DNA from: Bradyrhizobium sp.
Lineage (GTDB): Bacteria > Pseudomonadota > Alphaproteobacteria > Rhizobiales > Xanthobacteraceae
NCBI RefSeq assembly: GCF_030654605.1
Contig: NZ_JAURXB010000023.1
Location: 36,351 to 100,350 of the forward strand
DNA: 64,000 nt
Direction of reading: 5' to 3'
This document shows, piece by piece, positions 32,312 through 36,931 of this stretch. The translations under genes were made by a program, and so were the position numbers. How positions within the stretch are numbered: the stretch's first letter is position 1; every line of letters begins with the position of its first letter. The notes under the pieces are model-generated. The model worked only from the letters and a program-made list of their open reading frames with translations, did no database searches and was not told the DNA's origin.

Positions 32312-32391
32312 CGCGCTGCTTCCGTTCAACTTCAATGGGCGAACCCTACATAAAACCGTGATCGCAAACCAGCCGCGGTCAGGAACTTTCC

Positions 32392-32416
32392 GTAAGCTTC
32401 GCGGTTGTTTCGGTGA
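32392..32416 (+). promoter_or_regulatory. EcfG-like promoter candidate (GGAAC-N16-GGTT) upstream of csbD-like gene
   Basis: GGAAC at 32392-32396, GGTT at 32413-32416; ATG at 32440. Confidence 0.5.
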
Positions 32417-32439: not shown

Positions 32440-32655
32440 ATGGGTGCGACCACCGACAAGGTCAAAGGTACCGCCAACGAAGCCATCGGCAAGGCCAAGC
32501 AGGGCATCGGCGAAGCCGTCGGCTCCGACAGGCTGCAGGGCGAAGGTGTGATCCAGGAAGTCAAAGGCAAGGGCCAGCAGGCTCTCGGCGACGCCAAGGA
32601 AGCCACCAAGGACGCCGTCAACAAGGCGGCCGCCGCGGCCAACAGGAACCTCTGA
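32440..32655 (+). CDS. CsbD family stress protein
   Basis: [60 protein letters not shown]. Confidence 0.93.
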
Positions 32656-33609: not shown

Positions 33610-33942
33610 TCAGGCATCGGACTTGCGCACCTCTTCGTCACGATGCTGCTCGATGTCTTCAGGCTCCTGCTCGTCAAGATGCGTCAACTCCGACCGCGCG
33701 GCGTGATCGACGCGCAGGAGTTCATCGAGCTTGGCATGCAACGCCAGCTTGTCTCGGCGGTTGGCGCGCTGGATGAACAGCGTCATCATGAAAATCGCCA
33801 GCGTTCCAATGGCCTCCCAGCCAAAACTCTCCCGGCTGAAGGCCAGCCACAATGCGCCGTAGGCGACAACACCAAGGAAGGCGGCGGGATGTCCCGCCGC
33901 CTGCCCGACATGGGTGGTCCAGTGCCTGGGCAGATCTGCCAC
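33610..33942 (-). CDS. low-affinity iron permease family protein (PF04120-like), copy A
   Basis: VGQAAGHPAAFLGVVAYGALWLAFSRESFGWEAIGTLAIFMMTLFIQRANRRDKLALHAKLDELL. Confidence 0.82.
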   Translation of the reverse strand: MADLPRHWTTHVGQAAGHPAAFLGVVAYGALWLAFSRESFGWEAIGTLAIFMMTLFIQRANRRDKLALHAKLDELLRVDHAARSELTHLDEQEPEDIEQHRDEEVRKSDA

Positions 33943-33952
33943 GACGCTCGAT

Positions 33953-34021
33953 TTATCGAAGCAGCAGGATCAGGATGATCACCGGAATCGGGATTCCGAG
34001 CAGCCAAAGAAGAATCGGCAT
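33953..34021 (-). CDS. 22-aa hydrophobic micro-ORF
   Basis: MPILLWLLGIPIPVIILILLLR*; SD-like GGAAAGGA upstream; shares LLWLxGIPxPxI with 36408-36494. Not in the ORF track (too short). Confidence 0.6.
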   Translation of the reverse strand: MPILLWLLGIPIPVIILILLLR

Positions 34022-34045
34022 GGAGTTTTCCTTTCCTGGTTGAAA

Positions 34046-34891
34046 TCAGTTGCGGACCTTGCGGCCCCAGGTACCGTCGCGCAGTCCGCCGCCTTCGGTG
34101 GCAGCGAGGCTGGCGCAGAAGGCACCGAGCAACAGCGAGGCCGTCAGCCAGAATGCGAGCTGCATGGCGGCCTTGCGGGCGGCATCGAGTTCGGTCTTGG
34201 CCTCGGTCACGACTTCATCGACGCGCTTCTCGGCATCGGCCTGGCTGAGTCCGGTGCGCGCAGCCACCACCCTGGCGACATACTGCCGATCGGCCGGCTT
34301 CAGATCGCTGCCGTTGCGGAAGCTGCTGGTAAACAGCCGCACCATTTCGCCGCGCGATTCCTGCCCGTTGCCAGCGTTCGGCGCGAAGGAAGGGTCGGAA
34401 CGGAACAGCGTATCGACATAGCCGTCCATCGGACCCGACTGGCTCGCGGCGGTCGCCGCACCCTGCGAGGCGCCCGTTACGGCGCTGCCGAGCAGGCTGG
34501 TCGCTGGCGTGGCGAGCAGCACAGCGCCCAGCACGGAAGCGAACGCCCACGCGATGAAGCCGTGCGCGGTGTCGCGGAAGTACACCTCGTCGCTGTGAAC
34601 GCCAACCCATCGCGTTCGCAGCCGGCCGGCGATGTAGCCGCCGAGCGAAGGCGCGATCATGGCGATGACGAGAAGATAGAGGCCGGTGCCGATCTTGAAC
34701 GTGGTGGTCGATACTCCCGAGCCGGCCCATGGCGATACCACCGACAAACCGAGTCCGGTGCCGAAGGCAAGCAGGACGAGCGTAAGCGCGCAACTCACCA
34801 CCGCGCCGGCGGCGACCGCGGGCCATGACACACCGGCGATGGAGGGTTCACCGGTCTCGGTCCCCGGTTGGACAATTACAGTATCGATCAT
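34046..34891 (-). CDS. polytopic membrane protein of unknown function
   Basis: MIDTVIVQPGTETGEPSIAGVSWPAVAAGAVVSCALTLVLLAFGTGLGLSVVSPWAGSG...GGYIAGRLRTRWVGVHSDEVYFRDTAHGFIAWAFASVLGAVLL. Confidence 0.8.
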   Translation of the reverse strand: MIDTVIVQPGTETGEPSIAGVSWPAVAAGAVVSCALTLVLLAFGTGLGLSVVSPWAGSGVSTTTFKIGTGLYLLVIAMIAPSLGGYIAGRLRTRWVGVHSDEVYFRDTAHGFIAWAFASVLGAVLLATPATSLLGSAVTGASQGAATAASQSGPMDGYVDTLFRSDPSFAPNAGNGQESRGEMVRLFTSSFRNGSDLKPADRQYVARVVAARTGLSQADAEKRVDEVVTEAKTELDAARKAAMQLAFWLTASLLLGAFCASLAATEGGGLRDGTWGRKVRN

Positions 34892-35127
34892 CGCGCGCTC
34901 CCAGCTGGCCAAACATGTTACGAGTGCCGCAACAATGTGCAGCGGGAACGTTTGTTCCGGGATCGCATTTGCAATTTCGCACTGTCCGGCGCCGCACACA
35001 TCGTTTCAGCGCAATCCACAGCGTGCGCTTGCGACATCGTGCGATCGCGAAGTCGATTGCTCCATCGCGTCCAATACTGCCCGCGCGCACGCGACGGCAG
35101 CAACGCTGATCGCAACGCACCGGCTGC

Positions 35128-35697
35128 TCATTCGGCAGCCACGGCGCGCTCTGCGGCCTTCGTGGCCTTGTCGCCGGTCCGCCTCACAGAATCCTTGCCG
35201 TCCTGATCGTCGTTGTTATCGACCTCGGCCCGGCGCTCGCATTTGCTGCGGATTTCTTCCAGCTCCTCGTCGGTCAGATGTTCGATGCCGACAAGCGAAT
35301 TTTGCGCGGCGCTGACCCGAATGAGCTCGTCCAGCTTGACCTGGATGGCGGCGCTGTCGCGGTTCTGCGAATTCTGGATCAGAAACACCATCAGGAACGT
35401 GACGATGGTCGTGCCGGTTTTGATAATGAGCTGCCAGGTGTCCGAGAACTGAAACAGCGGCCCGGTGATCGCCCATACCAGCACCACGCCAGCAGCCAGC
35501 ATGAAGGTCGACGCGCGGCCTGCCGCCAGCGAGGTCCCGTTGGCGATGTCGCCGAACAACCGGCTGAAACGATCGGCCCCCTTGCGCTTGCCCTGCGGTG
35601 GCTTGCCCGCTTTGGTGCCCATCTCGATGCCTGCTCCCGCAATGGAATTGAGGCCCGACGCTGCGAGGCGGCGGGCCTGTTCGTTGCTGCTCCCCAA
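35128..35697 (-). CDS. low-affinity iron permease family protein (PF04120-like), copy B
   Basis: TFMLAAGVVLVWAITGPLFQFSDTWQLIIKTGTTIVTFLMVFLIQNSQNRDSAAIQVKLDELIRVSAAQNSLVGIEHLTDEELEEI. Start may be MGTKAG. Confidence 0.87.
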   Translation of the reverse strand: MGSSNEQARRLAASGLNSIAGAGIEMGTKAGKPPQGKRKGADRFSRLFGDIANGTSLAAGRASTFMLAAGVVLVWAITGPLFQFSDTWQLIIKTGTTIVTFLMVFLIQNSQNRDSAAIQVKLDELIRVSAAQNSLVGIEHLTDEELEEIRSKCERRAEVDNNDDQDGKDSVRRTGDKATKAAERAVAAE

Positions 35698-35706
35698 GTG
35701 CGGTCC

Positions 35707-36228
35707 TCAGCTGGCCGCTTTGCGGTTGACACCCTTGCGCAGCGCAACGGTGTTGAGCTTGGTGTTCGCTGCCTTTTCCTCGTTGAGGTTGGTGGTCAGG
35801 AACCGGACGATGTCGTCATGGCCGAGTTCTTCCGCCCATGCGATCAACGTGCCGTAGCGGGCGATCTCGTAATGCTCGACGGCCTGCGCATTCGCCACGA
35901 TCGCGGCATCGAGCACCGACTTGTCCTCGACCTCGCCGGCGGTCTGGTCGGCTTCCTTGATCAGGCCATCGATCGCCGGGCAATCGGTGCCGGACGGCTC
36001 CTTGCCGAGCTTCTTGAACACCTGGTTCAGCCGGTCGATCTGCTTGTTGGTCTCTTCGAGATGCAGTTTCAGACCCTGCGCCAGATCACGATTGGTCGCC
36101 TGATCGATCAGCTTCGGCAGCGCCTTGGTAATCTGCTGTTCGGCATAGTAGATATCCTGCAAGCCATGCAGCAGCAGGTCGTCCATCGTCTTGATGTCTT
36201 TGGAAAAGAAACCCACGTCATCCTCCAT
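35707..36228 (-). CDS. YciE/YciF ferritin-like protein (DUF892)
   Basis: MEDDVGFFSKDIKTMDDLLLHGLQDIYYAEQQITKALPKLIDQATNRDLAQGLKLHLEETNKQIDRLNQVFKKLGKEP. Confidence 0.93.
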   Translation of the reverse strand: MEDDVGFFSKDIKTMDDLLLHGLQDIYYAEQQITKALPKLIDQATNRDLAQGLKLHLEETNKQIDRLNQVFKKLGKEPSGTDCPAIDGLIKEADQTAGEVEDKSVLDAAIVANAQAVEHYEIARYGTLIAWAEELGHDDIVRFLTTNLNEEKAANTKLNTVALRKGVNRKAAS

Positions 36229-36265
36229 TGAAAGGTTGGAACCCGAAAACGGGTTGCGCCATTCC

Positions 36266-36290
36266 AACATTTACGACTTGGAGGGGTTCC
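36266..36290 (-). promoter_or_regulatory. EcfG-like promoter candidate (GGAAC-N16-TGTT) upstream of the DUF892 gene
   Basis: Reverse strand GGAAC CCCTCCAAGTCGTAAA TGTT; 38 nt before the ATG at 36228. Confidence 0.5.
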
Positions 36291-36407
36291 CGCGTTGAGA
36301 TTTCAACATAGCGGAAATTCTTCTTCGTCATCGACCCGACATTGTCAGCCAGCGTCTCGCAGCTCGGTCGCGGCCCTGGGGCCGCAGCCGAACTCCGATA
36401 TCAGACG

Positions 36408-36494
36408 CTAGCGATTCATGAACAACGCGAGAAGCAGGATGATCGGAAGCGGAATTCCGATCAGCCAGAGCAGCGCACCTTTACCGAAACCCAT
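36408..36494 (-). CDS. 28-aa hydrophobic micro-ORF
   Basis: MGFGKGALLWLIGIPLPIILLLALFMNR*; strong SD GGAGG (GGAGGCTGACATG); shares LLWLxGIPxPxI with 33953-34021. Confidence 0.65.
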   Translation of the reverse strand: MGFGKGALLWLIGIPLPIILLLALFMNR

Positions 36495-36525
36495 GTCAGC
36501 CTCCTTGTGTTTGGACTGCATGGAT

Positions 36526-36550
36526 AACTCGCAAGAATTCCGAGGGTTCC
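36526..36550 (-). promoter_or_regulatory. EcfG-like promoter candidate (GGAAC-N16-AGTT) upstream of the 28-aa micro-ORF
   Basis: Reverse strand GGAAC CCTCGGAATTCTTGCG AGTT; 32 nt before the ATG. Confidence 0.45.
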
Positions 36551-36619: not shown

Positions 36620-36817
36620 CTACGACGGACGCGGCAACCGCAGCTCTTGACCGGCGTCGTGTAGCGGACCGGTCGAGGTCGCCGCATCCAGATCGATGGC
36701 GATTTGACGGGCGATCAGATCGGCGGCTTTCCGGGCATCGCTTTCATTGGCGCAATCGAGCACGACCGGATCCCCGAACCGCGCGCCGTCGACAATATCG
36801 AAATGAAAAACGGGCAT
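36620..36817 (-). CDS. DUF6894-like small protein (65 aa)
   Basis: MPVFHFDIVDGARFGDPVVLDCANESDARKAADLIARQIAIDL. Confidence 0.7.
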   Translation of the reverse strand: MPVFHFDIVDGARFGDPVVLDCANESDARKAADLIARQIAIDLDAATSTGPLHDAGQELRLPRPS

Positions 36818-36931
36818 TGGTTTGTCTCCCGTGGGAGGTCAATGCCCGGAAACGAAGCCCGTTCCGCAATCTGTCTTGGGAACGCACAGGCTCCCGGCGG
36901 CGAGCGGTTTCGCCACCGGGAACCGAATCAC

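Follow-up and report, generated by a model that had tools for sequence, protein, structure and literature searches.

Two micro-ORFs, termed A (28 aa) and B (22 aa), were located on the minus strand in intergenic space of the window (the whole 64,000-nt stretch of Bradyrhizobium DNA that was analysed). By direct translation each was found to run from an ATG to a stop, and both peptides matched letter for letter those reported in the original prediction for this locus, which had also claimed a Shine-Dalgarno-like site for each. These sites were found at the positions given below, together with the surrounding genes and the putative promoters.

32382-32406 (+), putative EcfG-type promoter of the CsbD gene, GGAAC-N16-GGTT
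32440-32655 (+), CsbD gene
33610-33942 (−), second, shorter Iron_permease (PF04120), downstream of micro-ORF B (Pfam)
33953-34021 (−), micro-ORF B, 22 aa, MPILLWLLGIPIPVIILILLLR, one predicted hydrophobic span (translation; family copies)
34029-34036 (−), Shine-Dalgarno of micro-ORF B, GGAAAGGA (sequence)
34046-34891 (−), partner, uncharacterised 281-aa membrane protein (adjacency of homologues at many loci)
34934-34958 (−), putative ECF-type promoter of the partner-B operon, GGAAC-N16-CATT, −67 from the partner start
35128-35697 (−), Iron_permease (PF04120) neighbour (Pfam)
35707-36270 (−), DUF892 (ferritin-like) stress gene, longest ORF (Pfam)
36266-36290 (−), putative EcfG-type promoter before the DUF892 gene, GGAAC-N16-TGTT
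36408-36494 (−), micro-ORF A, 28 aa, MGFGKGALLWLIGIPLPIILLLALFMNR (translation; identical syntenic peptide)
36500-36504 (−), Shine-Dalgarno of micro-ORF A, GGAGG (sequence)
36526-36550 (−), putative EcfG-type promoter of micro-ORF A, GGAAC-N16-AGTT, −56 from the ATG

Micro-ORF B is flanked by the genes at 34046-34891 (−) and 33610-33942 (−), and micro-ORF A precedes the DUF892 gene, for which a true start at 36231 is more likely than the longest-ORF start. Pfam found CsbD, DUF892, two Iron_permease domains and FKBP among the neighbours, which bears out the stress and iron-permease-like surroundings described originally. Micro-ORFs of 18-40 aa carrying W..GIP.P numbered two in the window against 0.05 expected per shuffled 64-kb window, so that two such ORFs are, as had been argued, unlikely to arise by chance; the 5.66-Mb host assembly yielded no copies other than A and B. 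The mean hydropathy of the micro-peptides reaches 2.7-3.0 over 18 residues, which gives a single predicted hydrophobic span, and the peptide layout, in which a proline-kinked hydrophobic span of ~18-20 residues is preceded by a short N-terminus and followed by a C-terminal R/H, suggests one membrane span. The description of A and B as small membrane peptides is supported, with the membrane location being a prediction.

Family breadth and purifying selection

Searches of 200 genomes of the host GTDB family found matches in 175 with query A and in 172 with query B at E ≤ 1, a threshold at which the weakest matches include chance ones, and 41 of the 47 sampled genera were matched by each query. 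Profile A1, consisting of 24 family members, matched 64 of the 385 genomes of a class-wide sample at E ≤ 0.1 and 56 at E < 1e-3, compared with eight and one, respectively, for the reversed-profile control, and it matched further genomes of the phylum as well. Hosts include Bradyrhizobium, Rhizobium, Mesorhizobium, Nitrobacter, Rhodopseudomonas, Methylobacterium, Bosea, Novosphingobium and Roseomonas, and plasmid loci place the family also in the betaproteobacteria Paraburkholderia, Pandoraea and Variovorax. A phage origin was rejected, as only two relatives were found among 2.9 million viral contigs.

The members are built of a short N-terminus, the core L-L-W-x-x-G-I/V-P-x-P (L, W, G, P and P being invariant in A1), an aliphatic run and a final R/H. 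By their N-termini they were divided into type A (M-x-F-G-K/R-G-), type B (MPI-, with copies 86-95% identical to micro-ORF B in other genera of the host family), type C (MGRG-) and shorter relatives (MRS/MRY-). The reading frame and the Shine-Dalgarno, on whose conservation the original prediction had staked itself, are kept together with the start and the stop across dozens of genera. A Shine-Dalgarno precedes 168 of the 171 non-redundant members, a count that is somewhat favoured because starts were chosen partly by the Shine-Dalgarno.

The codon-level check proposed at the outset gave pairwise dN/dS values between 0.11 and 0.15 (0.15 for type A, 0.11 for type B and 0.14 for type C), which are biased downwards because the loci came from protein similarity, with dS close to saturation. 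The codon-position entropy is about 0.65/0.2/1.3, with variation concentrated in the third positions. Because of the bias and near saturation of these ratios, synteny makes the cleanest case for selection. In Bradyrhizobium sp. SZCCT0176 (L118) and SZCCT0180 (L119), A and B occur in the same order on one strand; compared with these loci, A differs by 11 synonymous and no nonsynonymous changes, leaving the peptide identical, and B by five synonymous and two nonsynonymous changes, while the flanks of A, 120 nt on each side, are only 48-58% identical over all comparisons. Purifying selection acts on the micro-peptide, residue by residue.

No Pfam or NCBIfam family matched peptides A or B above its curated cut-off, and an NCBIfam PEF-CTERM match to A, which at 15.3 bits fell short of the cut-off of 23, was set aside as a resemblance between hydrophobic stretches. 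A text search of the available papers for the peptide letters found none, and a tblastn search of plasmids with the peptides as queries came back empty, which probably reflects the BLAST low-complexity filter because the Phyllobacterium plasmid p_2 carries a copy. The micro-ORF is annotated in none of 16 annotated plasmid records with a copy, a statement of lower grade because the PLSDB gene table is incomplete. The earlier suppositions that A and B are related and unannotated both held up, with support from the breadth of matches, purifying selection and Shine-Dalgarno conservation. It is nearly certain that micro-ORFs A and B are real genes of one unannotated family of 22-28-residue predicted membrane proteins.

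Promoter motifs and the neighbouring membrane protein

Two features absent from the original prediction, EcfG-type promoters and a conserved pairing with the membrane protein at 34046-34891, emerged from the family-wide comparison. De novo analysis found GGAAC as the most enriched 5-mer upstream of the micro-ORFs, present in 124 of the 171 non-redundant members against 16 expected and peaking 50-64 nt before the start; GTT follows it 17 nt later in 69 cases and 18 nt later in 16. The full GGAAC-N16/17-CGTT-like motif was found in 89/171 upstream regions, the corresponding frequencies being 0.4% in shuffles and 9/171 for the opposite strand. Targets of Rhizobium etli EcfG1 carry GGAAC-N16-CGTT (PMC3892343), and by this likeness in sequence the upstream motif is a predicted EcfG (general stress response) promoter. 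The window holds nine GGAAC-N15/16-NGTT sites against 2.8 expected, and a search of the host genome for NepR, of the PhyR-NepR-EcfG system, matched PF18557 at 2.7e-15. From the promoter spacing, a leader of ~25 nt is expected before A.

Type B has no EcfG-type site directly before the micro-ORF; a GGAAC-N16-NATT site, mostly CATT, lies instead 56-89 nt before the partner gene at 13 of the 15 type-B loci, as against 0.25% of shuffles, deviating from the consensus by CATT in place of CGTT. General stress control of the micro-ORFs, with EcfG acting in vivo, is strongly inferred. It would not be universal, because the EcfG motif was not found at the betaproteobacterial copies. Another GGAAC-N16-CATT, at 36841-36865 (−) just before the start of the small DUF6894 gene at 36620-36817 (−), may be an ECF-type promoter.

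The partner gene, ending 24 nt upstream of the ATG of B, is single copy in the host genome, and its product has four predicted TM helices with a helical domain between TM3 and TM4. This protein matched no Pfam or NCBIfam family, and comparisons with the PDB by sequence and by fold yielded no credible relative (best fold E-values 0.36 and 0.1). AF2 modelled the partner alone at a pLDDT of 77.6. Folded with B as a read-through, in frame across the partner's stop in the window, solely as a docking probe, it gave an overall pLDDT of 81.5 and a better partner model, with the micro-peptide at 49-65 and uninformative on docking.

At many other loci, the ~300-aa gene beside the micro-ORF proved to be a homologue of this partner: of 200 micro-ORF loci, 90 have such a homologue on the same strand, placed after the micro-ORF in Rhizobium and Mesorhizobium and before it in Bradyrhizobium and several Burkholderiales. 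In the plasmid test, 18 of the 19 partner loci were found via the partner alone and one (L198) via a known copy's accession; a micro-ORF lay 8-48 nt away at 17/19, or 16/18 of the unbiased loci, betaproteobacteria included. In the class-wide search the 11 partner homologues of highest similarity (E ≤ 1.6e-95, the window's partner among them) were all paired with a micro-ORF; beside 19 weaker homologues it was found only next to L222, a fragment cut by a contig end, and at 0/18 others. Across the 385 genomes, 35 contain both, 29 the micro-ORF only and 13 the partner only (Fisher p about 1e-21, a statistic that ignores relatedness). On Pandoraea plasmids (L202, L206 and L243) the micro-ORF precedes the partner gene and has GTG as its start codon; in Paraburkholderia and Variovorax, by contrast, it comes after the partner. 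The partner family on conjugative plasmids adjoins CsbD, YqjD/DUF883, phage-holin-family, DUF892 and other stress-type genes.

At roughly half of the micro-ORF loci, no partner gene is close by. Such solo loci comprise type A together with many of the type-C and the shorter copies, and many of them have an EcfG-type promoter of their own. The 'WLFFG' copies of Bradyrhizobium, Nitrobacter and Rhodopseudomonas follow a glyoxalase-family gene in 6/6 tested, the solo type-C copies at L148, L159, L161, L165, L170 and L171 lying ~70-116 nt after it on the same strand. Because half of the loci are unpaired and 29 of the 64 positive class-sample genomes show no partner match, the peptide can act without the partner; it therefore cannot serve in all genomes as an obligate leader or subunit of the partner.

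Possible roles and comparison with known systems

With slightly more confidence than doubt, we favour a stress-induced family of single-span microproteins in which B is an accessory subunit of the partner and A a solo paralogue; for the accessory-subunit role taken by itself, the odds appear about even. EcfG would switch on transcription of both micro-ORFs, and B would be made from the same operon as the four-helix partner, which it may stabilise or tune in the membrane as a small accessory subunit. A would be a free-standing paralogue under a stress promoter of its own, supplying the same partner in trans or acting on another membrane target. We infer that the micro-peptides are translated and inserted into the inner membrane, and hypothesise a physical complex with the partner. 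A broader reading, put forward tentatively, is an undescribed stress-response membrane complex of a four-helix protein without fold relatives and a 22-28-residue micro-subunit, which would range from alpha- to betaproteobacteria and also onto conjugative plasmids, with solo stress-induced micro-subunits exchanging with the operon-encoded one.

That the micro-peptides affect the lipid bilayer itself, or some widespread target in the membrane, during stress, with the partner pairing reflecting mere co-regulation of two stress genes, is a rather unlikely alternative. It would account for the solo copies with their own EcfG promoter, which are about as frequent as paired ones, for the many genomes with a micro-ORF and no partner match, and for solo settings such as type C after the glyoxalase-family gene or type A near stress genes such as DUF892. 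However, co-regulation fits poorly with an adjacency that persists despite flipped gene order, is confined to one partner subfamily and spans alpha- to betaproteobacteria, the latter without the EcfG motif. A stress-induced hydrophobic type I toxin of the TisB/Ibs kind, depolarising the membrane, would match the small size, the hydropathy and the stress promoter, yet the predicted ~25-nt leader with its strong Shine-Dalgarno leaves little space for translation-blocking structure, no Rfam RNA was found at the locus, the pairing with one membrane protein is stable and viral contigs are nearly devoid of the family, which together make a toxin highly improbable. A ceN106 match in the Rfam search at the locus was rejected as below the gathering score. 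Least credible of all is a leader peptide or translational coupler for the next gene with a functionless product, an arrangement that the Rhizobium-type micro-ORF, ending 8-21 nt before the partner gene, might suggest, but which is at odds with micro-ORFs placed after the partner in Bradyrhizobium and several Burkholderiales, with solo copies that often have no close downstream gene and with the residue-by-residue conservation of the peptide.

The favoured reading, an accessory subunit with solo paralogues, recalls the CydX, KdpF and AcrZ type of subunits, which have 20-50 aa and one TM helix, are often encoded beside a large membrane subunit and are condition dependent. Linkage to one specific membrane protein across taxa, a mark of such subunits, was found here too. 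The likeness is one of anatomy only: no sequence relation was found, there being no Pfam match, and in contrast to those systems the partner is uncharacterised, the gene order variable and solo paralogues common. The recurrent pairing nevertheless offers a first functional handle on a partner of unknown fold, pointing to stress, the membrane and a micro-subunit.

CydX is mentioned in PMC10117765, which also describes SEP6 of Sinorhizobium meliloti as a protein of <30 aa with a predicted TM helix, translated according to Ribo-seq and Western analysis, recovered with the P100 fraction, which contains membranes, and conserved across Hyphomicrobiales. On that description, SEP6 may be a member of the family, in which case translation of one member would already be known.

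The other relevant comparison is with genes of the EcfG general-stress regulon (CsbD, DUF892 and others), which share the promoter motif and the neighbourhood with the family. Those genes are longer and annotated, whereas the micro-family, very short and broadly conserved in Alphaproteobacteria, is absent from the libraries and annotations checked, and annotation-based studies of the stress response would therefore miss it. Its pairing with a membrane protein makes the roles of many unknown EcfG targets at the membrane testable.
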